A DNA stretch of 64,000 nt. It comes from Stutzerimonas kunmingensis (GTDB taxonomy: Bacteria; Pseudomonadota; Gammaproteobacteria; Pseudomonadales; Pseudomonadaceae). Shown one piece after another: positions 1,600 through 13,833 of the stretch. Within the stretch, counting starts at the first letter, position 1. Each line of letters opens with the position of its first letter. Under the pieces are notes generated by a model, which had not been told where the DNA came from, searched no databases, and saw only the letters and a program-made list of their open reading frames with translations. The translations under genes and the position numbers were made by a program. The DNA is taken from contig NZ_PISM01000014.1 in the NCBI RefSeq assembly GCF_002929225.1, positions 186,001-250,000 of the forward strand, in the 5' to 3' direction.

Positions 1600-2637
1600 T
1601 CAGGGGGCGTCGAACAGCGGCTGCAGCCCGCTGGGCACCACGCCGGTCCAGCGTTTGAAGGCGCGGCGGAAGTTGGTGGTGTCGTTGAAGCCGAGGTGCC
1701 GCGCCACGGCCTCATTGCCGAGGCCGCGGGCCTGATAGAGGTAGAGCGCAACGTGCGTGCGCACCAGATCGAGCTGTTCCTGGAAGTGCGTGCCGTGCTT
1801 GGCCAGCTTGCGCTTGAGCGTCGCCGGGCTCATGGCGAACGCCAGCGCGACGCGCTCCAGGTTCAGCGGCTCGCGGATGTTGTCATGCAGGTATTGGTAG
1901 AACGCATCGAGAAACGCACAGGGGCCTTCCAGCGCATTGATCTGCTGCTGGCTGGCCTGCTGCGCGACCTGACCTACCGTGGCCGAAGCATCCGGCCAGG
2001 GCTGATGCAGGTACTCGCGAGGCAGGCTGAGCAGGGTCAGGTGGCGGTCGAACTGCAGCGCGTCACCCAGGTGCACCCAGTACTGCTCGACATGGCGCGG
2101 CTGCGGGTAGCCGAACTGGAAGCGCCACGGCAGGCGCAGACCGCTGCCGCGCTTGCACAGCGCGACGATGGCGGTCAGGTGCGCTTCGATGAGAAACCGT
2201 TGGTGGCGGCCGGCGCTGCCGTTGTCCAGCCAGTAGATGTGCAGCTGCTGCTCGTCCAGCAGCAGCCTTGGCGCCAGCAGCGGGCAGAGCAGGGCGCGGA
2301 ACTGGCTAAGCCGCTCCAGCGCCTGTTCGAGGTTGCCGGCGTTGGCCAAGGCAAGGCTGACATCGCCGTAGTGCCCGGGCAGCAAGCGCTGGCCGAACAG
2401 AAAGCTGCTGTCCGCAGCACCCAACAAGCGCTCGGTATTGCCGATGAGCGTTAGCAGCTGCTCCGGGCTGACGCGGGCGCGGCCGCTGGCGACGTCCTCG
2501 TAGAACAGCCCACTGCCGCGCAGCAGCGCATGGCTGTCGATACCGCGCGACAGCGCCAGGTCGAGCAACACCGCCGGCTGGTGGTGCGCGGCGATGAAGC
2601 GGGTGTCCCATTCGTACCAGCGTAGCGAGCTTTCCAT
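1600..2637 (-). CDS. AraC-family transcriptional regulator with N-terminal arabinose_bd-type domain
   Basis: A 345-residue AraC/XylS regulator. The first 200 residues resemble the hydrophobic effector domain (PF12625 type) of OruR/FtsR-like Pseudomonas regulators. The C-terminal 90 residues hold the two helix-turn-helix units, with LNLERVALAFAMSPATLKRKL and the second-helix signature HLGFNDTTNFRRAFKRWTGV. It is 7 bp downstream of the GGDEF-like gene on the same strand, so the two are probably co-transcribed. The target is unknown. Confidence 0.9.
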   Translation of the reverse strand: MESSLRWYEWDTRFIAAHHQPAVLLDLALSRGIDSHALLRGSGLFYEDVASGRARVSPEQLLTLIGNTERLLGAADSSFLFGQRLLPGHYGDVSLALANAGNLEQALERLSQFRALLCPLLAPRLLLDEQQLHIYWLDNGSAGRHQRFLIEAHLTAIVALCKRGSGLRLPWRFQFGYPQPRHVEQYWVHLGDALQFDRHLTLLSLPREYLHQPWPDASATVGQVAQQASQQQINALEGPCAFLDAFYQYLHDNIREPLNLERVALAFAMSPATLKRKLAKHGTHFQEQLDLVRTHVALYLYQARGLGNEAVARHLGFNDTTNFRRAFKRWTGVVPSGLQPLFDAP

Positions 2638-2644
2638 GATCGCC

Positions 2645-3559
2645 TCAGGCGCAGCGGGGCAGGGATTGCTTGGCCTTGGCCAAGCCGAGGTTGAGGCGTT
2701 TCAGTAATTGCTCGGCATCGTCGTCGAAGGCCATCACCACCGCGGTGCTGGCGCGCAGATGCAGGCGCTCGCCGTGCTGGCGGGTCTTGTGCGCGAGGCT
2801 GGCGACGGCGGTCTGCAACTCCTCGGCGAGCTGCCGCGCCTGTTGTTCGGCGGTATCGGGCAGCAGCACGACGAAGCGATCCCCGGCGAGGCGGCAGAGC
2901 AGGTCCTGATGGCGCAGGTTGAGCACCAGCAACTGCGCCACGGCCTGCAACACGAGGTCGCCTTCTTCCTGACCGTAGCGCTGGTTGACCCGGCTGAACT
3001 CGTCGAGGTCCACCGCCAGCAGCGACAGCGGCCTTTGCTCGTCGGCGGCCTGGCGCAGGGCCGAGTCCAGTTGCCGACGCAGGTACTCGGCCGTGCCGAG
3101 CGGGGTCAGGTTGTCGAACAGGCGATGCTCGCGAAACAGTCGCTCGCGCTTGTGCATCTGCGCGTTGATGGCGCGCTGTTCCTGGTTCAGGTGGTAGATG
3201 CCGAACGTCAGCAGGATCAGGCCGACCGGCATGGGCGCGGTTTCCAGCCAGTTGTCCCAGGCGATGTTGGCGGGGATCTGGATGAATTCGTCGAGCAGGT
3301 CCATCCACCAGGAAAAACAGATACAGGCCAGCCCCAGCGCCAGCAACCGCGTCACCCGGCCGGCCGGGCGGCTGTGCAGCAGCATGATCAGCCAGGCGAG
3401 GGCGAGGGCGGCGCAACCGCCTTCGCCGACCACGTCCATCCAGTCGATCTCGCCCCAGGATTTGAGCTGGCCGACGGCGAGGAGCAGCTGCAGGCCGACG
3501 TTGGCGGCCAGAGCGAGACCGAGGAGGGTGAGGGTGTGGAGTTTGAGGAGGGATTTCAT
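2645..3559 (-). CDS. Membrane GGDEF-domain protein with degenerate active site
   Basis: A 304-residue protein. Its N-terminal half has about four hydrophobic segments (residues 8-27, 40-60, 65-90, 105-125) and its C-terminal half is a GGDEF domain. The signature reads RLAGDRFVVLL instead of RLGGDEFVVLL, so the first Gly is Ala and the catalytic Glu is Arg. Diguanylate cyclase activity is therefore unlikely. It may act as a c-di-GMP/GTP-binding or protein-interaction module. The start at 3559 has GGAG five bases upstream, whereas the open frame to 3601 has no such site. It likely forms an operon with the AraC regulator. Confidence 0.85.
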   Translation of the reverse strand: MKSLLKLHTLTLLGLALAANVGLQLLLAVGQLKSWGEIDWMDVVGEGGCAALALAWLIMLLHSRPAGRVTRLLALGLACICFSWWMDLLDEFIQIPANIAWDNWLETAPMPVGLILLTFGIYHLNQEQRAINAQMHKRERLFREHRLFDNLTPLGTAEYLRRQLDSALRQAADEQRPLSLLAVDLDEFSRVNQRYGQEEGDLVLQAVAQLLVLNLRHQDLLCRLAGDRFVVLLPDTAEQQARQLAEELQTAVASLAHKTRQHGERLHLRASTAVVMAFDDDAEQLLKRLNLGLAKAKQSLPRCA

Positions 3560-3790
3560 CGGGTCTCCGTGGCGAGGGATCGCGCCAATGCGTGAGGGCA
3601 CGGAAACAGATGGATGTGACGGTTGGATGAATGGGGTGGGGGTTGAATTGGCTCAGGGGTTTTTTGGTTGATTGGACAGTTTGGTGGGGGGCTCGGGAAT
3701 GTGGTTTGTCCTGATGGATCGGATCAGTTCTGGACGAGGTGCTTGCTGCATCGAGTCTATGCCGATTGCCGAGTTGCCTGGCGATTTAGG

Positions 3791-4337: not shown

Positions 4338-4489
4338 CAGAGCTACCGGATACACGAAAAATCGGACTTGGCGCGGTGCTTATCCACCGCACCACAAAGC
4401 TATGGTCGCGCTCAAAAACAGGTCATATCAGCTCAATCCCGCTCGCAAAATCCCCGAAAACCCCCTGTTCCAAGCCCTCCCCGAACCTC

Positions 4490-4507
4490 CTGTCACAGAA
4501 CCGCCAT
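4490..4507 (+). promoter_or_regulatory. Candidate Pho box (PhoB site)
   Basis: CTGTCAC-AGAA-CCGCCAT at 4490-4507 matches the PhoB direct repeat CTGTCAY-N4-CTGTCAY. The first half-site is perfect and the second matches 5 of 7. It lies 67 bp upstream of the receptor start. No convincing -10 box follows, which is common in PhoB promoters but weakens the call. The phosphatase content of the operon agrees with PhoB control. Confidence 0.55.
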
Positions 4508-4573
4508 ATCCCCCACCTACCGTCCGCTGCAGTTCCGGGATGGACCCGGTAAACACCGTTCGGGGGATTGTTC

Positions 4574-7057
4574 ATGAGCACATACCGCAGCGGCATCCGC
4601 CATGCAGGATTCCGCATTAGCCTGCTGGCCCTGGCCGTCAGCGCCGGTTCGGCCTGGGCCGAGGAGCCGCTTGTCATGGAGCACGTCGAAGTCATCGGCC
4701 AGGCGGTCAGCATCGACGAGGCACTGAAGGACCAGCGCAATTCCGACAGTGTCGAAAGCGTGGTTCACGCCGATGGCATCGGCCAGCTGCCGGACGACAA
4801 CGCCGCCGAGGCGCTGCAGCGCATTCCGGGCATCTCGGTCGAGCGCGACCAGGGCGAAGGGCGTTTCGTCAGCGTGCGCGGCATCGCGCCGGATCTGAAC
4901 AGCGTCACCATCAACGGCACCCTGGTCCCATCGCCGGAGAGCGATCGCCGTGCCGTGGCGCTCGACGTACTGCCATCGGAGCTGGTGCAGTCGCTGTCGG
5001 TGGTCAAGACGCTGACGCCGGACATGGATGCCAACTCCCTGGGCGGCACCATCGAGGTACAGAGCCTGTCGGCCTTCGACCATGACGGGCTGTTCTACAG
5101 CCTCAGCGGCGAGGGCAGCTATGACGACAACGTCGACAAGACCAGCCCGAAATTCTCCGGCGCCATCAGCGACCGTTTCAGCCTCGGCGATGGCGTCGAC
5201 AACTTCGGCGTCGCCGCGGCCGTCAGCTGGCAGGAGCGCGATTTCGGCTCGGACAACGTCGAGACCGGCGGCAAGTGGGACTTTGCCGACGACGGCGCGC
5301 GGCTGGAGGAACTCGAGCAGCGCGACTACGAGATCACCCGCGAGCGCACTGGCTTCGGGTTGAATTTCGACTACAAGCCGGACGACGTCAGCAGCTACTA
5401 CCTGCGCACGCTATACAGCCGCTTCAAGGACACCGAAACGCGTAACGCCGCCGGTGTCGCCTTCGAGGATTCGCAGCTGCCGGGCGAGACCGGTGACGCC
5501 GAGGGCTGGCGCGAGCTGAAGTCCCGCGAGGACACCCAGACCGTGCAGTCCTACGTGTTCGGTGGTGAACGCATGATGGGCCTGTGGACCCTGAGCGGGC
5601 AGGCCGGTTACAGCCAGTCGCGCGAGCGCAATCCGGGCGGTATCGCCAGCGCGACCTTCGAGGGCGATTTCGCCGATGCCGGTTTCTCCAGCAGCCGCAA
5701 GCCGCGCCTGATGATCGATTCGTCCTTCTACAACCCAGCGTCCTTCGAGCTGGATGAAGTGGAGTGGGAGAAAAGCGACACCCGCGACCGCGAGAAGAAT
5801 ATCCGCCTGGACCTGGCGCGCGAGTACGACATCCAGGGTTATGCCGCGCAGGCCAAGTTCGGCGGCAAGCTCAGCCGCCGGCACAAGGACAACGACAACG
5901 AAGTCTGGAAGTACGACGATTTCGACGACCTGACCCTGGCCGATTTCCAGGGCGGCAACGTCGACTACGCGCTCGGCCGCTTCGGCCCAGGCATCAGCGC
6001 CTCGGCCATCGAGGGCGCGATTGGCGGTCTGGATGCCAGCGAGTTCTACGACGAGGAGGAGTCGCGCATCAATGACTTCGACATGCACGAGGACATCAAC
6101 GCCGCCTACCTGATGAACACCGTGGATATCGACCGCTGGCGCGTCATCGCCGGCCTGCGCTACGAGGGCACGCGCTTTCGCGCCAAGGGCACCGGCCTGC
6201 GCGACGGTCAGTTCGAGTCGATCTCCAGCAGCAGTCGTTATGACCACTGGTTGCCGGGGCTGCACCTGCGCTACCAACTGACCGACGACACCATGATCCG
6301 TGCCGCCTGGACCAACAGCGTGGTGCGCCCGACCTTCGGCCAGCTGGCGCCCGGTTTCGTCATCGACGGCAACGACGCCGAGTTCGGCAATCCCGATCTC
6401 AAGCCGCTGGAATCGATCAACTACGACCTCGGCATCGAGCACTACATGGGCCGCGCCGGCGTGGTGTCGGCGTACCTGTTCTACAAGGACATCGATAACT
6501 TCATCTACAACACCGATCTGGCCGGCACCGGTCAGTGGGCCGCGTTCGACGAAGCGCTCAGCTATCAGAATGGCAGCAGCGCGAAGCTCTACGGCCTGGA
6601 GCTGGCCTACTCGCAGAAGCTCGACTGGCTGCCGGCGCCGTGGAACGGTCTGTTGCTGGGCGCCAACGCCACCTTCAGCCAGTCCGACGCGGACATCGAA
6701 GGGCAGGGAATGCAGCGCAGCATCGACCTGCCAAACCACTCCGACACGGTCGGCAACCTGATGCTCGGCTGGGAAAACGACCGGCTTAACCTGCGCCTGG
6801 CTGCCAATTACAAGTCGGACTACCTCTACGAGGTGGCCGGCATCGACGACGAGGCGCACGACCTGTACGTCGACGATCAGCTGTTCGTCGATTTCAAGGC
6901 GGGCTACTTCATCACGCCGAGCCTGCAGCTGACCTTCGAGGCGCTGAACCTGACAGACGAGTCCTACTACGTCTACAGCGGCCGCCGTGCCTACAACGCC
7001 CAGTACGAAGAGTACGGCCCGACCTACAAGCTCGGCCTGACCCTCACCCACTTCTGA
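4574..7057 (+). CDS. TonB-dependent outer-membrane receptor, putative phytate/organophosphate importer
   Basis: An 827-residue TonB-dependent receptor. Residues 1-30 are a signal peptide ending SAWA. The plug spans about 70-165, with ALQRIPGISVERDQGEGRFVS, VRGIAP and SLGGTIEVQS. The remainder is the 22-strand barrel, ending with the expected C-terminal Phe. It resembles the Xanthomonas/Caulobacter-type receptor group. ATG 4574 was chosen over an in-frame TTG at 4568 because GGGGGA precedes it. The next genes encode a phytase, a TolQ/R-like motor, a TonB-like protein and PhoX, so the substrate is inferred to be inositol phosphate or another organic phosphate. Confidence 0.92.
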   Translation: MSTYRSGIRHAGFRISLLALAVSAGSAWAEEPLVMEHVEVIGQAVSIDEALKDQRNSDSVESVVHADGIGQLPDDNAAEALQRIPGISVERDQGEGRFVSVRGIAPDLNSVTINGTLVPSPESDRRAVALDVLPSELVQSLSVVKTLTPDMDANSLGGTIEVQSLSAFDHDGLFYSLSGEGSYDDNVDKTSPKFSGAISDRFSLGDGVDNFGVAAAVSWQERDFGSDNVETGGKWDFADDGARLEELEQRDYEITRERTGFGLNFDYKPDDVSSYYLRTLYSRFKDTETRNAAGVAFEDSQLPGETGDAEGWRELKSREDTQTVQSYVFGGERMMGLWTLSGQAGYSQSRERNPGGIASATFEGDFADAGFSSSRKPRLMIDSSFYNPASFELDEVEWEKSDTRDREKNIRLDLAREYDIQGYAAQAKFGGKLSRRHKDNDNEVWKYDDFDDLTLADFQGGNVDYALGRFGPGISASAIEGAIGGLDASEFYDEEESRINDFDMHEDINAAYLMNTVDIDRWRVIAGLRYEGTRFRAKGTGLRDGQFESISSSSRYDHWLPGLHLRYQLTDDTMIRAAWTNSVVRPTFGQLAPGFVIDGNDAEFGNPDLKPLESINYDLGIEHYMGRAGVVSAYLFYKDIDNFIYNTDLAGTGQWAAFDEALSYQNGSSAKLYGLELAYSQKLDWLPAPWNGLLLGANATFSQSDADIEGQGMQRSIDLPNHSDTVGNLMLGWENDRLNLRLAANYKSDYLYEVAGIDDEAHDLYVDDQLFVDFKAGYFITPSLQLTFEALNLTDESYYVYSGRRAYNAQYEEYGPTYKLGLTLTHF

Positions 7058-7132
7058 CCCCATGCCGCTCCGGTGCCCGCCGTTCCCCTTTACGGTCGGG
7101 CGCCGGCAGGCGGCAGCCTGAATGGATACACC

Positions 7133-9049
7133 ATGAACGCATTGCCCAAAACCATGCTGCTCGGCCTGTGCATCGCATTGGCGGCCTGCCAGTCCACACA
7201 GCCAGATACACCGGCGAAGTCGGCCCAGCTGAACATCAGCGAACCGCTGCTGGCCGGCCTCGAGTACGCCCAGCTGCTAAACGGCTACACCCCCTGGACC
7301 GGTGCCGACCGTGTGCAGGTCGATGACCAGGGCCTGCAGCTGCTGGACGCCGCCGGTAACAGCCTGGCGCGCCACGCCGGGCGCTTCGAAGGACTGGACC
7401 ATCGCGTCGACCGCCAGGGTTTGCTGCTGGCCACCGTCGAGCGCAAACGTCAGCAGGCGATGCTGATCGGCCTGAATGCGGCGCGTGCCTGGAGCCAACC
7501 GCTGTACCTGCCGCGCACCGCATTCGCCATCGAGGGGCTGTGCCTGTACCGCGACAGCGCGAGCAACGACTTCGTCTTTCTGCTCGGTGAGGAGGGCGTC
7601 GGCGAGCAATGGCTGGTCGGCAGTCAGGGCCGCCTGCTCGATGAGGCGCGGCGGGTGCGCGGGCTCAGCCTGCCGCCGCAGAGCGCCTTCTGCCAGACGG
7701 ACGATGCCAGTGGGCAGCTCTATGTCAACGAGGAGTCCGTCGGCTTCTGGCGTTACCCGGCCGACGCCGAGGCGCCGTTGCAGCGTGAGCCGGTCGATCT
7801 GCGCCAGCCGTTCGGCAGCCTGGCCCATGCCGCAGCGGGCATGACCCTGGTGCCGGGCGGACTGCTGGCGCTCGATCCCGAAGCCTCGGTGCTGCATCTG
7901 TACCGGCAGAACGAAGCCGGCTGGCAAGCCGATGAGGTCATCGCACTGGACGGTTTCGACGAACCGGAACGCATCAGCGCGCGCCGCGGTGCCGAGGGCG
8001 TCGAGCTGCTGCTGGCGGACGAACGCGGCCTGCAGTCGGCCCGTCTGGACTGGCAACCGACCGCGCTGTCGCAAGCCGAGCCGATCGTCAGCCTGCCGGC
8101 CGCGGTGGAGACCGGCCCGGTGCCGAGCCTGGGTGATGCCGCCGATGATCCGGCGATCTGGGTCCATCCGCGCGATCCGGCGCAGAGTCGTGTGCTCGGC
8201 ACCGACAAGAAGGGCGGCCTGGTGGTGTACGACCTGGACGGCCGTCAGGTGCAGGACCTGCGCGCCGGCCGGCTGAACAACGTCGATGTGCGCAGCGGCT
8301 TCCGCCTTGGCAGCAAGCGCGTGGACCTGGCCGTGGCCAGCAATCGCGATCACAACAGCCTGCACCTGTTCGCCATCGACCGGGCGAGCGGGGTGCTCCG
8401 CGATGTCGGCGAGGTCGCCACGCCGCTGAGCGAAATCTATGGCCTGTGCATGTTCCAGGATCGCCAGGGCACTACCTACGCCATCGCCAACGACAAGGAC
8501 GGCACCTTCCTGCAGTACCGCCTCGATGGCAGCTCCGGCCAGCCGCGTGGCGAGCTGGTGCGGCGCTTCAAGCTGGACAGTCAGCCCGAGGGCTGCGTGG
8601 CCGACGACCGCAGCGAGCGGCTGTTCGTCGGCGAGGAAGACGTCGCGGTGTGGGTGGTCGATGCCCGCGCCGATGTGCCAGCGGTGCCGGAGCAGGTCAT
8701 CGGTGTCGGCGGGCCGGTCTACGACGACATCGAAGGTCTGGCGATCTACCACGGCGAGCGCGGCGACTACCTGGTGATTTCCAGTCAGGGCAACGACAGC
8801 TACGTGGTGCTCGATGCCCAGGCGCCCTATGGCATGCGCGGCACCTTCCGCATTGGCCTGAACGCCAAGCGCGGCATCGACGGAGCGTCCGAGACCGATG
8901 GGCTGGAAGTCACCTCGGCCAACCTCGGCGGCATCTGGAACCGCGGAATGCTGGTGGTGCAGGACGGCCGCAAGCGCATGCCCGAGGGGACGCAGAACTA
9001 CAAGTACCTGCCCTGGTCGGCGATCGCCGATGCGCTGGGGCTGGATTGA
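7133..9049 (+). CDS. Beta-propeller 3-phytase lipoprotein
   Basis: A 638-residue lipoprotein. The lipobox LAAC places the acylated Cys at residue 19, followed by Gln, which predicts the outer membrane. The C-terminal half (about 325-636) is a canonical beta-propeller phytase, with DDPAIWVHP, NNVDVR, SQPEGCVADD, FVGEEDVAVW, GPVYDDIEGLAIY and ISSQGNDSYVV. These acidic motifs bind Ca2+ and phosphate. The N-terminal half is a more divergent propeller-like domain, the dual-domain layout seen in some bacterial phytases. It would strip phosphate from phytate at the cell surface. The frame is open from GTG 7073, but only ATG 7133 gives a signal sequence at the N-terminus. Confidence 0.92.
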   Translation: MNALPKTMLLGLCIALAACQSTQPDTPAKSAQLNISEPLLAGLEYAQLLNGYTPWTGADRVQVDDQGLQLLDAAGNSLARHAGRFEGLDHRVDRQGLLLATVERKRQQAMLIGLNAARAWSQPLYLPRTAFAIEGLCLYRDSASNDFVFLLGEEGVGEQWLVGSQGRLLDEARRVRGLSLPPQSAFCQTDDASGQLYVNEESVGFWRYPADAEAPLQREPVDLRQPFGSLAHAAAGMTLVPGGLLALDPEASVLHLYRQNEAGWQADEVIALDGFDEPERISARRGAEGVELLLADERGLQSARLDWQPTALSQAEPIVSLPAAVETGPVPSLGDAADDPAIWVHPRDPAQSRVLGTDKKGGLVVYDLDGRQVQDLRAGRLNNVDVRSGFRLGSKRVDLAVASNRDHNSLHLFAIDRASGVLRDVGEVATPLSEIYGLCMFQDRQGTTYAIANDKDGTFLQYRLDGSSGQPRGELVRRFKLDSQPEGCVADDRSERLFVGEEDVAVWVVDARADVPAVPEQVIGVGGPVYDDIEGLAIYHGERGDYLVISSQGNDSYVVLDAQAPYGMRGTFRIGLNAKRGIDGASETDGLEVTSANLGGIWNRGMLVVQDGRKRMPEGTQNYKYLPWSAIADALGLD

Positions 9050-9118
9050 CGTCATCGCCCGCTAACCGACCCGCCATCCAATAGCAGCTGCACCAGTCGG
9101 GGCAGGAGGAAACGATTC

Positions 9119-9832
9119 ATGCAAACGACTCTCGAGCACATGTCCATCTGGGGACTGATCAGCGAAGCCAGCCTGGTGGTCCAGGCGGTGATGATGATTC
9201 TGGTCCTGGCCTCGGTTTCGAGCTGGTACCTGATCATCCGTCGCAGTGTGGCGTTGCGCAGCGCCGAACGCCTGCAGCGCGGCTTCCTGCAGCGCTTCCG
9301 GCAGGGCGGCGATCTTGCCCAGCTCTATCGCGAAGGCCAGGCGCAGCCGTTGCCGGACGAGGCCGCGCTGCAGCGCATCTTCCTCGCCGGTTACGGCGAG
9401 TTCGCCCAGCTGCAACGCCAGCCGGGGATCGCGCCGGATGTGGTGGCGCAGGGTGTCGAGCGCAGCCTCTACGTGGCCGTCGCCGAGCAGGAGGAGCGTC
9501 TGGAAAAGGGCCTGCAGTTTCTCGCAACCGTGGGTTCGGTGAGCCCCTATATCGGCCTGTTCGGTACCGTGTGGGGAATCATGAACTCCTTCCTCGGCCT
9601 GTCGCAGGTGCAGCAGGCGACGCTCTCGACCGTCGCGCCGGGCATCGCCGAAGCGTTGATCGCAACGGCCATCGGCCTGTTCGCGGCGATTCCCGCGGTG
9701 ATGGCCTACAACCGCTTCGCTGCCCGTGGGCAGACGCTGGTCGGTCGTTACTACGCCTTCGGCAACGAGCTACAGGCGCGCCTGCATCGGCGCCTGCACG
9801 CCGCTTCACCCAACGTCGCCGCAGCCGCCTGA
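9119..9832 (+). CDS. TolQ/ExbB-family proton-channel protein, TolQ-like
   Basis: A 237-residue MotA/TolQ/ExbB protein with three transmembrane segments (about 17-37, 135-157 and 168-192). The stretch LATVGSVSPYIGLFGTVWGI and the VAPGIAEALIATAIGLFAAIPAV segment are nearly the Pseudomonas TolQ sequences, closer to TolQ than to ExbB. AGGAGG lies 8 bases before ATG 9119. With the next gene it would form the proton-driven motor powering the TonB-like protein at 10307. No pal, tolB or ybgC is nearby, so this is not the housekeeping tol operon. Confidence 0.9.
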   Translation: MQTTLEHMSIWGLISEASLVVQAVMMILVLASVSSWYLIIRRSVALRSAERLQRGFLQRFRQGGDLAQLYREGQAQPLPDEAALQRIFLAGYGEFAQLQRQPGIAPDVVAQGVERSLYVAVAEQEERLEKGLQFLATVGSVSPYIGLFGTVWGIMNSFLGLSQVQQATLSTVAPGIAEALIATAIGLFAAIPAVMAYNRFAARGQTLVGRYYAFGNELQARLHRRLHAASPNVAAAA

Positions 9833-9845
9833 GGAGGACGCCTTC

Positions 9846-10307
9846 ATGCTGGTCAAACCACAGCACAAACACGGGCCCAAGGCGGAAATGAACGTGGTGC
9901 CCTACATCGACGTGATGCTGGTGCTGCTGGTGATCTTCATGGTCACCGCGCCGATGCTGGTGCAGGGCGTCAAGATCGAGCTGCCCAAGGTCGCGGCCGA
10001 AGCGCTGCCGGTGGAGAACGAGCGGCAGATCCTCACGCTCTCGGTAAAGGCCGATGGCGGCTTCTACTGGAACCTGGGCAGCGAGCTGGACATCGACAAC
10101 CAGACCGACAGCGCCGTCGACCTTGCCGGGCTGCAGGCCAAGGTCGGCGCGATCATCGCCGAGCGCGGCGACACCCAGGTCTATGTCCGTGCCGACGAGG
10201 CGGCGGACTACGGTCGCGTGGTCGCTGGTATCGCCGAGCTGCAGCGCGGCGGGGTGGTCAACCTGGGGCTGATCACCGAGGCGCCGGCCGGAGTCGGGCA
10301 GCCGTGA
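9846..10307 (+). CDS. TolR/ExbD-family protein, TolR-like
   Basis: A 153-residue TolR/ExbD protein. One transmembrane helix follows AEMNVVPYIDVMLVLLVIF, and Asp22 is the conserved proton-carrying residue. The periplasmic domain has TolR-type features (YWNLGSELD and the C-terminal VNLGLITEAP). GAGGAGG directly follows the tolQ-like stop codon and precedes ATG 9846. The TGA at 10305-10307 overlaps the next start. It partners the TolQ-like protein. Confidence 0.9.
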   Translation: MLVKPQHKHGPKAEMNVVPYIDVMLVLLVIFMVTAPMLVQGVKIELPKVAAEALPVENERQILTLSVKADGGFYWNLGSELDIDNQTDSAVDLAGLQAKVGAIIAERGDTQVYVRADEAADYGRVVAGIAELQRGGVVNLGLITEAPAGVGQP

Positions 10308-11137
10308 TGATGACCTTCAGCACGCCCGCCGCGCATGGCAGCAAAGTTGTCCCGCGACAGTGGATCGGTCCGGCCGGGGCTGCATTGCTGACCCTCGGGA
10401 TGCACGCCGGACTGTTCGCGCTGTTGCTCGGCAGCTGGTCGCCAGCGCTGGAAATGCCGGTCGCCACCCAGGTGATGCAGACCCAGTTGATCAGCCTGCC
10501 GCCGCCGGCGCCAACCGAGAGCGCAGTGCCGGTCGAACCGCCCGTCGAGCCCGCGGTCGAACCGCCGCCGCGTGAGCCACAGGTCGATACCCACGCCCAG
10601 CAGCAGCGACTCGAGCAGGCCGAGCTGGCCTTCAAGCGCGCCGAAGAGGAGCGCAAGGCCGAGCAGCTGAAGCAGCAGCGCGAGCAGTTGGAACGCCAGC
10701 GCGAACAGCAGCGTCAGCGCGACGAGCAACGCCGCCAGGAACAGGCACAGGAGCGGGAACGGATGGCTCAGGAAGAGGCATGGTTGCAGGCGGCGCGCGA
10801 AGCCGAGGCAACGGCGCGCGCGGAAGCGGCTGAGCGCGCACGACAGGCTGCAGCGGCCGAGGCAGCCAGCCGGCAATACCTGCCGATTGCCAAGAAGCCG
10901 CCGGTCTACCCGCAACGGGCGCTGGACTCCGGGCTTCAGGGTTCCTGCACGGTCAGCTACACGGTCGATGTGCAGGGGCGCGTGCGCTCGCCCGAAGTGG
11001 TCGGCGACTGCCATCCGCTGTTCATCCGCCCATCACTCACCGCCGCCAAGAGCTTTCGCTACCAGCCGCGCATCGTCGAAGGCCGCGCGGTTGCCGTGCC
11101 CGACGTAAAGAACACCTTCCATTACCGCATCGAATGA
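10307..11137 (+). CDS. TonB-like energy transducer with TolA-like coiled coil
   Basis: A 276-residue protein. One transmembrane helix lies near residues 20-40, followed by a Pro/Glu-rich stretch (PPVEPAVEPPP) as in TonB. A long Gln/Glu/Arg/Ala coiled coil (about 95-190) is typical of TolA. The TonB_C domain (about 195-276) contains PPVYPQRALDSGLQGSCTVSYTVD. Two cysteines in this domain could form a disulfide. It overlaps the tolR-like stop (TGATG). Start choice lies among GTG 10304, ATG 10307 and ATG 10310. The presumed partner is the receptor at 4574. Confidence 0.88.
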   Translation: MMTFSTPAAHGSKVVPRQWIGPAGAALLTLGMHAGLFALLLGSWSPALEMPVATQVMQTQLISLPPPAPTESAVPVEPPVEPAVEPPPREPQVDTHAQQQRLEQAELAFKRAEEERKAEQLKQQREQLERQREQQRQRDEQRRQEQAQERERMAQEEAWLQAAREAEATARAEAAERARQAAAAEAASRQYLPIAKKPPVYPQRALDSGLQGSCTVSYTVDVQGRVRSPEVVGDCHPLFIRPSLTAAKSFRYQPRIVEGRAVAVPDVKNTFHYRIE

Positions 11138-11165
11138 TGCCGTTACGACTCAGGAACCGTTTTCG

Positions 11166-13127
11166 ATGAAACAGGATTTCACCGATTTTCACGCGAGCGT
11201 GGGCGCTCATGACGACCAACCGGTCAATCCGAGCGGCAACCTGCCGCTGCAGCAGGCGATCGATCACCGCCGGCGCGGGCTGCTCAAGGGTGGGCTCGGC
11301 CTGGCCGGCATCGCCTTTCTCGGCGGCGGGATGGCCGGCGCGCGAGCCGCGACCCGGGGCGATTCGCTGCTCGGCTTCGAAGGTATCCCGACCCAGCTCG
11401 ACCCGCATTTCGACCGTGTCGAGGTGGCGCCGGGCTACAGCGCCCGGGTGTTCTTCTCCTGGGGCGATCCGGTGCATGCCGACGCACCCGAGTGGCAGCC
11501 GGATGCCAGCGACGATTGGCAAGCCCAGCTCAGGCAGGCCGGCGACAACCACGACGGCATGCATTACTTCCCGTTCCCCGACGCGCCCGACAGCCGCGGC
11601 CTGCTGGCCATCAACCACGAGTACGTCAACCCGACGCTGCATCCAGAAGGCATCGCCGTGGTCGATGGCCGGCGCCCGCTGGAACAGGTGCGCAAGGAGC
11701 AGGCGGCCCATGGCCTGAGTGTCATCGAGGTGCGCAAGGATGCGCAGGGTGAATGGCAGCGGGTGATGGATTCACCCTACAACCGCCGCATTTCCGGCAT
11801 GACGCCGATGGCCATTGCCGGGCCGCTGGCCGGCCATGCAGCGATGCAGACCATGGACGACCCGGAAGGAAACACGGTGCTCGGCACGCTGAACAACTGC
11901 TCCAGCGGCTTCACGCCCTGGGGCACCTATCTGGTCTGCGAGGAGAACTGGCACAACTACTTCGTCAACCACGACGCCGACGATCTTGCCGCGCGCGTCT
12001 CGCACAACCGCTACGGCATCGCCGGCAGCGGCATGAGCAAGCTCTACGGCTGGGGCACGGTCGATCCGCGTTTCGATGCCACGCCGCAGGCAGGCCAACC
12101 CCATGGCGGCTTCGTCAACGAGCCGCACCGGTTCGGCTGGGTGGTGGAGGTCGATCCGTTCGACCCGCAGAGCGCGCCGGTCAAGCGCACCGCCTTCGGC
12201 CGTTACTGCCGCGAGTGCTCGGTGCTGTCGCTGGGCGAGGACGGGCGCATGGCGTTCTACTCGGGCGACGACACCAAGGGCGAGTACGTCTACAAGTTCG
12301 TTCCCAGCGGCCGTTTCGTGCCCGGTGCGGACGCCGCCAACCGCCGCTTGCTGGATGAGGGCACCTTGTATGTCGCGCGTTTCGATGCCGACGGCAGTGG
12401 CCAGTGGCTGGCGCTGGTGCACGGCGAGCATGGCCTGACCGCGGAAAACGGCTTCCCCAGCCAGGCCGAGGTGCTGCTCAATGCCCGCGCCGCTGCCGAC
12501 CGCGCCGGCGCGACGCCGATGGACCGGCCGGAGTGGGTCGCGGTGCATCCCGATACCCGCGAGGTCTACGTCACCCTGACCAACAATGACGGGCGCGGCA
12601 CCAAGCAGCCGCTGGACAAGGCCAATCCGCGACCGAACAACCTGCACGGGCAGATCCTGCGCTGGCAGGAAGAGGGTGGCGACCCGGCGGCGACGCGTTT
12701 CCAGTGGGAAGTCTTCCTGCTCGCCGGCGAGCGCCGTGGTGCGCGAGATGCCCAGAGCCAGTCGGTTGCCTCCAACCTGATCGGCACGATCGACGGCGAC
12801 TGCTTTTCCTCGCCGGACGGGCTGGCCTTCGATCGTGACGGGCGTTTGTGGATCGAAACCGATTTCGACGATGACGAATCGGCGATGCAGGCCATGGGCA
12901 CCAATCAGCTGCTCTGCGCCGATCCGAAAACGCGCGAGGTGCGGCGTTTCCTGGTCGGGCCACGGGGTTGCGAGATCACCGGTATCACCTGGAGCCCGGA
13001 CTACCGCGCCATGTGGATCAATGTGCAGCACCCAGGGTTGAGCTTCCCGGCCAGCGACGGCCAGTCACGTCCGCGCTCGTCCACCGTGCTGATCACCAAG
13101 GATGACGGCGGCGTGATCGGCAGCTGA
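11166..13127 (+). CDS. phoX: PhoX-family alkaline phosphatase (DUF839), Tat-exported
   Basis: A 653-residue PhoX-type phosphatase. An N-terminal twin-arginine signal HRRRGLLKGG (about residues 34-43) precedes a hydrophobic stretch, consistent with folded export to the periplasm. Family landmarks include LLAINHEYVNP, NNCSSGFTPWGTYLVCEENW (the Cys and Glu region binding Fe/Ca in PhoX), CFSSPDGLAFD and GCEITGITW. The usual GRF-x-HE motif reads GRYCRECSV here, a departure from typical PhoX. It is the last gene of the run starting at 4574 and would release phosphate from esters, including phytase products. Confidence 0.9.
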   Translation: MKQDFTDFHASVGAHDDQPVNPSGNLPLQQAIDHRRRGLLKGGLGLAGIAFLGGGMAGARAATRGDSLLGFEGIPTQLDPHFDRVEVAPGYSARVFFSWGDPVHADAPEWQPDASDDWQAQLRQAGDNHDGMHYFPFPDAPDSRGLLAINHEYVNPTLHPEGIAVVDGRRPLEQVRKEQAAHGLSVIEVRKDAQGEWQRVMDSPYNRRISGMTPMAIAGPLAGHAAMQTMDDPEGNTVLGTLNNCSSGFTPWGTYLVCEENWHNYFVNHDADDLAARVSHNRYGIAGSGMSKLYGWGTVDPRFDATPQAGQPHGGFVNEPHRFGWVVEVDPFDPQSAPVKRTAFGRYCRECSVLSLGEDGRMAFYSGDDTKGEYVYKFVPSGRFVPGADAANRRLLDEGTLYVARFDADGSGQWLALVHGEHGLTAENGFPSQAEVLLNARAAADRAGATPMDRPEWVAVHPDTREVYVTLTNNDGRGTKQPLDKANPRPNNLHGQILRWQEEGGDPAATRFQWEVFLLAGERRGARDAQSQSVASNLIGTIDGDCFSSPDGLAFDRDGRLWIETDFDDDESAMQAMGTNQLLCADPKTREVRRFLVGPRGCEITGITWSPDYRAMWINVQHPGLSFPASDGQSRPRSSTVLITKDDGGVIGS

Positions 13128-13311
13128 CGATCGTTCCCGCGAGTAGGTGCCAGGCTAGGCGGCGCCCCGCATCCTGAATCAGGGCAGGCACAACGGGCGG
13201 TAGCTACCGTTGGCGCTTCCGGCGCATCATCGTTTCTGCTGCGCCGAGCTCCTGCCAGGTCGTACTGCCTGGCGGGCCTTAGCTGCGCCGCCTCGTGGTG
13301 ATCGACCGGCG

Positions 13312-13833
13312 CTACACGCGCAACCAAAGCGCTCGGGCCCCACGCAGTGCGAGCCAAGCTAACAGCGCGGCCAGCACGTCATCCAATGCGATACCCAAGC
13401 CTCCACCAATCGTTTCGACAAATCCTATGGGCGGCGGCTTGGTGATATCGAAAAGCCTATATAGTGCGAATCCGGCACCGAGTAACCACCATCGATGGGC
13501 TGTGGCCAGCCCCAAAAATACGAGTGGAAAGGCGAGATACTCGTCGGCAACGATCTGCGCGGCATCACCGCCTCCAAGCCAACGCGAGGCCCAGTGACAC
13601 AGCGGAACGCCGACCGCCAGCAGCGCAGAGATGAACAGCAGTTGCTTTGCCTGCGGCCGCCCCCAGAGCCACCACGCCAGTGGTATCCCCAGCAGTGATC
13701 CGAAGGTACCGGGCATCCAGGGCAATGATCCCAGCCCGAAACCAGTGGCAATCAATAAAACGACTTGCTCTGCGATCAATTGTCGAACCTCTACGGTGAC
13801 CACCTGGCGTAACTGCAGAAATGCTCGCAACAT
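13312..13833 (-). CDS. PgpA-like phosphatidylglycerophosphatase A paralogue
   Basis: A 173-residue membrane protein of the PgpA family, which removes phosphate from phosphatidylglycerol phosphate. Motifs are GFGLGSLPWMPGTFGSLLG, VADEYLAFP, ALYRLFDITKPPPI and GGGLGIALDDVLAA, with about four hydrophobic segments. It differs from the usual Pseudomonas PgpA beside thiL (DEYLAF replaces DEMVGM), so it is probably a second copy. The frame is open to 13878. ATG 13833 was chosen because it leaves the family-usual 30 residues before GFG, although its ribosome site is weak. Confidence 0.8.
   Translation of the reverse strand: MLRAFLQLRQVVTVEVRQLIAEQVVLLIATGFGLGSLPWMPGTFGSLLGIPLAWWLWGRPQAKQLLFISALLAVGVPLCHWASRWLGGGDAAQIVADEYLAFPLVFLGLATAHRWWLLGAGFALYRLFDITKPPPIGFVETIGGGLGIALDDVLAALLAWLALRGARALWLRV

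Follow-up and report, generated by a model that had tools for sequence, protein, structure and literature searches.

A conserved locus of Stutzerimonas kunmingensis, most likely for phytate, with a Tol-type motor, a Pho box and a divergent araC/GGDEF-like pair

Pseudomonads are used as soil inoculants. Phytate is a major organic reserve of phosphorus in soil, up to about half in some soils, according to the available passages of two reports (PMC5082522, PMC5438359). Among the closest described systems are those in passages of PMC3400609: a TonB receptor adjoins a phytase gene in Citromicrobium, and PSPTO_3242 belongs to a receptor cluster whose substrates include phytate. These cases share with the present locus a receptor beside a phytase, with phytate proposed from gene context; they differ in that the passages mention neither a motor nor PhoX, and neither a pair of regulators nor a promoter layout.

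Passages of two papers bear on the regulation of such genes. Proteomics gave no evidence of PhoBR regulation for the phytases of DSM4166, SBW25 and BIRD-1, and the authors suggest that phytase is expressed only with phytate present (PMC5082522, available passages); a simple Pho-regulon reading leaves this unexplained. When Pseudomonas syringae pv. phaseolicola was given bean leaf extract in M9, expression rose 3.2-fold for PSPPH_2990, which has a phytase domain, and 2.3-fold for PSPPH_2994, an AraC-family gene four tags away; for apoplastic fluid or pod extract, the available passages list no value for either gene (PMC2803797). Our search of the open-licence literature (titles and abstract starts among the matches listed) found no paper on an operon with the motor and regulator pair described below, and no paper in that literature was found with AGDRF as a word. 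Receptor plus phytase is already known; the literature searched yielded neither the duplicated Tol-type motor nor a promoter plan that joins PhoB with AraC-GGDEF.

We analyzed a 64,000-nucleotide stretch of the S. kunmingensis genome (assembly GCF_002929225.1, contig NZ_PISM01000014.1, positions 186,001 to 250,000), hereafter the window. Its phosphorus-scavenging run comprises six plus-strand genes, all intact and in frame, between 4574 and 13127 (Table 1). A preliminary description made from the sequence had claimed six consecutive plus-strand genes, with capture, motor and hydrolysis functions in one run; every gene was confirmed as open at its place with family scores above the cut-offs, and domains and gene order support the grouping. 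From receptor to PhoX, the intergenic distances are 75, 69 and 13 bp, then a 4-bp overlap, then 28 bp; because these gaps are small, a single transcript of six genes is plausible, and no terminator-like site was found in 13050-13400, 3' of phoX. Within the 4.9 Mb host genome, the phytase family is matched by one open frame, and the nearest named relatives, at 98% phytase identity, include S. kunmingensis, S. chloritidismutans and others. The preliminary description started at 4490, the first base of the Pho-box-like site, and the divergent araC/GGDEF-like pair upstream of the receptor was absent from it, as were the two AraC-like sites. These two genes, 7 bp apart, are probably co-transcribed. 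A LysR gene at 652-1587 adjoins araC; it was dropped as a member of the unit because its orthologue was seen at the same place only in close Stutzerimonas-type relatives.

Table 1 Positions of genes and promoter elements in the window (Q, D and B denote the TolQ paralogue, TolR paralogue and TonB-like transducer)
Feature	Position	Strand	Basis or remark
AraC-family regulator	1600..2637	-	PF12625 + PF12833
GGDEF-like protein	2645..3601	-	PF00990 116.7 bits; AGDRF replaces GGDEF, RxxD kept
Distal AraC-like site GGTTGAATTGGCTCA	3641..3655	+	12 of 15 to distal consensus
Multi-copy repeat element	3790..4345	matches on both strands	between the two AraC-like sites
Proximal AraC-like site GGTCATATCAGCTCA	4421..4435	+	conserved in relatives
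Pho box CTGTCACAGAACCGCCAT	4490..4507	+	11 of 14 consensus bases; conserved in relatives
-10 element TACCGT	4518..4523	+	exactly 10 nt 3' of Pho box
TonB-dependent receptor, Xanthomonas/Caulobacter type	4574..7057	+	TIGR01782 622.7 bits, cut-off 310
Beta-propeller phytase	7133..9049	+	PF02333 309.1 bits, cut-off 21
TolQ paralogue (Q)	9119..9832	+	TIGR02796 255.1 bits, cut-off 221
TolR paralogue (D)	9846..10307	+	TIGR02801 127.5, cut-off 127.3 (marginal)
TonB-like transducer (B)	10304..11137	+	PF03544 48.6, cut-off 24.6; N-terminal helix, Pro-rich stretch, 96-residue helix as in TolA, TonB C-terminal domain
PhoX phosphatase with twin-arginine motif	11166..13127	+	PF05787 538.6 bits

We then examined conservation by scanning one genome per species for 84,980 species; 553 stretches with a phytase relative were obtained, and the best 80 were kept. 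Wherever the contig was long enough, these 80 carried the core unit araC-GGDEF/receptor-phytase-TolQ-TolR-TonB, with both regulator genes in 72/72 loci reaching more than 7 kb before the phytase. Q was present in 80/80, D in 79/80 and B in 78/80; where one is missing, the contig stops (L005, L037). A search for the same gene order elsewhere had been suggested in the preliminary description, and the order receptor-phytase-Q-D-B was indeed kept in all 78 of the best 80 loci with room. PhoX, presented there as part of a complete system, is present here but optional among relatives, following the motor in 41/77 of these loci with downstream room. Hosts include Pseudomonas, Stutzerimonas, Azomonas, Alcanivorax, Methylophaga, Herminiimonas, Oxalicibacterium and Pseudothauera. 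The motor extends beyond a single family, as it is present in loci of Alcanivorax, Methylophaga and Oxalobacteraceae.

A phylum sample of 398 genomes contained 42 with a phytase match, including the host's own, and 40 of the 41 others were read (G329 left out). All nine genomes of the same family had the regulator pair and receptor-phytase-Q-D-B. Outside this family but within its order or class, araC-GGDEF-receptor-phytase was found in 8/11 genomes and Q-D-B in 0/11 within the stretch read. Neither the regulator pair nor Q-D-B was seen in 20 genomes of other classes, in which a receptor match, with both strands counted, was seen in 16/20 phytase stretches. A phytase tree was built from 65 chosen rows and rooted at the midpoint; its outer branches are long. 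A branch supported at 100/99 separates the 56 motor-bearing rows from the others, and the presence of PhoX required 7 changes, of which 5 or more are forced. Two records with enterobacterial names, L030 (Pantoea sp. Ap-967) and L057 (Brenneria sp. 4F2), group with Pseudomonas-type loci, which may reflect transfer or mislabelling. L179 (G158) has araC-GGDEF-phytase with no receptor match in the stretch.

The motor genes were compared with the two described energy modules. As in TolQ-TolR-TolA of Tol-Pal, Q scores above the TolQ cut-off, D above that of TolR, and the transducer has a TolA-like stalk, whereas the locus motor lies outside the tol operon, which is also present in the genome, and its transducer ends in a TonB domain. 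Q is 62.6% identical to the genome's own TolQ and D 58.9% to its own TolR; because these own genes sit, with a TolA-like gene, on contig 17, Q is on its sequence a TolQ-family paralogue and not the Tol-Pal TolQ. Shared with ExbB-ExbD-TonB are a proton-channel pair and a TonB C-terminal domain beside a TonB receptor; however, Q is closer to TolQ than to ExbB (255.1 vs 165.0 bits), and D is mixed, since E. coli ExbD is a better-scoring match than E. coli TolR for both D and the own TolR. The transducer's C-terminal domain has an invariant Cys pair and is closer to TonB than to TolA; assignment of the whole protein as TolA was rejected on its TIGR02794 score (43.5 vs a cut-off of 59.45, with the match covering residues 26-190 only) and on its fold. 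A Q-protein tree with ExbB and MotA rows was rejected: 11/22 inner branches were open and several branches were long, so the kinship of Q is stated by identities alone. Relatives were chosen by hand, with 16 loci for the Q/D comparison, 17 for the transducer, 43 for the TonB box, 64 for the phytase tree and 29 for another comparison. A row of frames that are long ExbB-like, ExbB-like, ExbD-like, TonB-like and TPR-like (by eye, plus some family matches) was observed on G000 contig 10 (L159).

The high identity of Q and D to the own TolQ and TolR would also fit a motor that is not dedicated, in which Q-D-B serve other receptors or back up Tol-Pal. We consider this unlikely, considering the linkage of Q-D-B to the receptor in 78/78 loci with room and the TonB-type end of the transducer. 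The receptor's TonB-box-like stretch (EHVEVIGQA in the window) also argues for dedication, being uniform in 28 motor-bearing rows and more varied in 16 motor-less rows; this contrast is weak because motor-less L166 and L168 resemble the motor-bearing type. Dedication of the motor is thus presumptive, as the genome has other TonB-domain proteins.

Structure prediction divides the phytase into two all-beta halves, at residues 33-305 and 319-635, with a mean pLDDT of 88.7. Its C-terminal half aligns to the solved phytase 3amr (residues 321-637, 239.7 bits) and, with the PF02333 score, identifies a full catalytic propeller; the N-terminal half is extra to the part aligning with solved phytases. 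The enzyme had been called a surface phytase lipoprotein. A lipobox, LAAC, is present in the window strain, but crude patterns detected one in just 46 to 52 of the 80 relatives (best 80 of 553; the passes disagree, with 52/80, 46/80 with a few rows cut short, and 46/88 with at least 9 wrong-start rows), so a membrane anchor does not appear to be a core feature. The lipobox, where present, favors a phytase acting outside or at the surface, with the receptor importing lower inositol phosphates or another product. This is somewhat unlikely, as the remaining relatives had no lipobox found, many having a plain Sec-like signal, and no secretion gene was recognized in the unit.

The locus PhoX aligns over residues 65-652 (538 bits) to the solved PhoX of PDB 3zwu, which we take to be that of Pseudomonas fluorescens; the genome's other PhoX scores 459 bits. 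It shares with 3zwu this long alignment and the twin-arginine motif (a crude RR pattern was found in 41/41 linked PhoX proteins), and differs as the last gene of a phytase operon.

In the phoA promoter, the box, spacing and -10 are arranged as in Pho-regulon operons, and the locus shares this box, spacing and -10 with phoA and with the genome's own second phoX. The latter has its own Pho box in identical layout, with TAGCGT placed 10 nt after the box, and 59 bp ahead of the phoB match there is a box with three mismatches. Since neither of these two fits the consensus better than the receptor's box does, the weakness of the site at 4490-4507 does not count against it. Sites with at most 3 mismatches numbered 211 in the genome, compared with 104 for a reversed control pattern; because this is only about twice the control, the box was assessed by comparison across loci. 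Among 76 upstream sequences (the window and 75 of the best 80/553 loci, leaving out L019 and four with less than 350 bp before the receptor), the best match was 10-14 of 14 in 75, with a mean of 11.3 vs 8.5 in shuffles; L037 alone fell below 10, with a score of 8, and in L026 the best-scoring site was at another place. Anchored on the box, TANNNT followed exactly 10 nt later in 72/76. Scores were 13 of 14 in Oxalicibacterium, 13 of 14 in Herminiimonas and 14 of 14 in Methylophaga; the Oxalicibacterium and Herminiimonas sequences are without TANNNT. By a box at promoter spacing, the operon is a candidate member of the Pho regulon, and the Pho-box-like site of the preliminary description is upheld as conserved. 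Its placing of the run behind that site holds by comparison as a Pho-type promoter, but leaves out a conserved regulator pair with a site of its own. The locus thus differs from Pho-regulon operons by this second conserved site, and published proteomics, in the passages available, did not detect Pho control of phytase (PMC5082522).

The phosphate-type promoter and the linked phosphatases also bear on what is acquired, as the receptor might import metal-phytate mainly for iron or another metal, with phosphate as a by-product. TonB receptors commonly carry metal chelates, which counts for this idea. So does chelation of Fe by phytic acid, mentioned in the available passages of PMC3400609. We regard it as very unlikely, given the promoter type and phosphatases and with no iron gene recognized in the conserved unit.

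The residues of the GGDEF signature and of the I-site have catalytic and binding roles. The GGDEF-like protein of the locus (alternative ATG at 3559) has a hydrophobic N-terminal part, its membrane position being judged by eye, and does not match the active diguanylate cyclase signature GG[DE]EF. By alignment columns, the signature was AGDRF in 72/72 relatives (best 80 of 553), and the I-site RxxD, five residues before it, was likewise kept in 72/72; these counts exclude L054, whose GGDEF match is another gene, and L032, whose GGDEF frame is interrupted. The Lys of the usual FK..ND motif (after DxDxF) was missing in 72/72 and its Asp retained in 1/72, while three Asp residues were invariant: the first one in DxD, the one in AGD and the one in GD. 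AGDRF occurred in 0/30 of the own genome's other GGDEF domains examined (of 37 other matches); outer relatives had AGDRF (6), GGDRF (1) and SGDCF (1), with L179 unread. The lost acidic residue at signature position four suggests a protein without cyclase activity, and the intact I-site suggests that it may bind c-di-GMP.

The neighboring regulator belongs to the AraC/XylS family (HTH_18 52.4 vs a cut-off of 33.6). Upstream of the Pho box we found a second conserved site, GGTCANNTCRGCTCA, derived from 74 of the 76 upstream sequences and starting 68-69 bp before the box in 66/76 (from the best 80 of 553). This AraC-like site was matched at 11 or more of 15 positions in 89/90 loci with the araC/GGDEF pair. 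Of 25 loci without a visible pair, three had it cut off by contig ends (L004, L010, L078) and scored 14, L201 had no usable sequence, and the 21 usable ones scored at most 10 of 15, the shuffle level. These results suggest that the site goes with the regulator pair, although the contrast is not clean because loci without araC are also more distant. In the own genome the site has two exact occurrences, at the receptor promoter and on contig 15; the latter copy was rejected as chance, since it falls within an open frame of 604 aa that by eye resembles an acyl-CoA dehydrogenase.

At araCBAD, AraC acts by looping. The locus shares with that type two direct sites at helically phased spacing, with looping putative here, and differs by the added Pho box and the GGDEF-like partner. 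Two copies of the site at 11 or more of 15 were found in 57/72 relatives and fewer than two in 15/72. In the window the two copies are 780 bp apart because of the intervening repeat element, for which the own genome gave 14 matches, itself included. Among relatives, after 7/62 spacings (<60 or >240 bp) were dropped, the 22 distinct spacings up to 170 bp gave a best period of 11.35 bp (5/2000 jittered sets as periodic) and the 32 distinct spacings up to 240 bp one of 11.6 bp (40/2000); all 45 and all 55 spacings gave 11.2 and 11.5 bp (0/2000 each), kinship being partly removed. Spacings in steps of about 11 bp suggest that the doubled sites act by DNA looping. The gap between the GGDEF gene and the receptor, usually about 0.3-1.1 kb, reaches about 1.9-2.0 kb in L020, L022, L027 and L030 and 2.7 kb in L028, whose promoter regions may hold something extra.

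This promoter plan reaches further than the motor, since motor-less outer loci also show site, box and -10. All three elements are present in L170, L176 and L177, and the full layout with one weak element each in L166 (site 10 of 15) and L169 (box 9 of 14). Site-to-box distances in these five loci (79; 68; 67 and 78; 68; 79 bp) are in the same phase, three of the five being one 11-bp step longer. The other 3/8 outer loci are without a clear box or site: L178 (site pair, no clear box), L167 and L168.

Control by PhoB alone, with the araC/GGDEF pair a conserved neighbor doing another job, would account for the conserved Pho box and spacing; we consider it quite unlikely, as an AraC-like site stands at a fixed distance from the box and goes with araC, phytases were not seen as PhoBR-regulated (PMC5082522, available passages) and leaf extract induced in M9 (PMC2803797, available passages). 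The same passages favor the opposite arrangement, in which the operon is driven solely by the araC pair, while the box is either a leftover or the target of another factor. We judge this improbable to the same degree: the box is kept in Pseudomonas, Oxalicibacterium, Herminiimonas and Methylophaga (TANNNT being missing in the first two of the non-Pseudomonas genera), and in 5/8 outer loci, one of the five weak. To judge from the tag numbers alone, PSPPH_2990 and PSPPH_2994 could be the phytase and araC of this locus, since in the related L045 a small open frame separates the GGDEF gene from the receptor. M9 is phosphate-rich; as the phytase gene was induced in it, in the partial account available, PhoB may not be strictly needed and may act as an enhancer rather than a licence. 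With a two-input gate, a conserved box and a lack of Pho induction would no longer be at odds, and the published passages fit such a gate without proving it.

Taken together, the locus is real and conserved, and most likely serves phytate use. The explanation we prefer, with somewhat better than even confidence, is a phytate-acquisition operon gated by phosphate need plus a substrate signal and served by a private motor; from the evidence above, we infer its substrate, the dedication of the motor and the gate. Under phosphate starvation, PhoB would bind the box and recruit RNA polymerase to a receptor promoter that, given the box and the fixed 10-nt spacing, would consist of a -10 without the usual -35. 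Full transcription would also need the divergently encoded AraC at the proximal site, looping to the distal one, its activity set by a substrate-derived signal and aided by the GGDEF-like membrane protein, which would probably act not as a cyclase but as a switch that binds a nucleotide or c-di-GMP. The receptor would take phytate or its metal salt across the outer membrane, driven by the duplicated TolQ/TolR and the TonB-ended, TolA-stalked transducer, whose kinship is established above and whose dedication is presumed. In the presumed periplasmic location, the phytase and, where present, PhoX, recognized by their domains, would release phosphate from their putative substrates. More tentatively, a hybrid Tol-Ton motor, formed by TolQ/TolR duplication and a TonB-ended transducer, may be reserved for one receptor and coupled to a gate in which PhoB reports phosphate need and an AraC loop reports substrate, the loop being set by a GGDEF membrane protein that lacks catalytic activity.

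For the question of how Pseudomonas phytase gets switched on, on which proteomics gave no evidence of PhoBR control (PMC5082522, available passages), the conserved two-site promoter and its regulator pair offer a concrete candidate answer. The motor would exemplify a Tol pair that was duplicated and redirected to the import of nutrients. The protein with its invariant AGDRF provides a clean case for the function of degenerate GGDEF proteins, which, if the proposed reading is true, would be dedicated partners of AraC regulators in nutrient capture.
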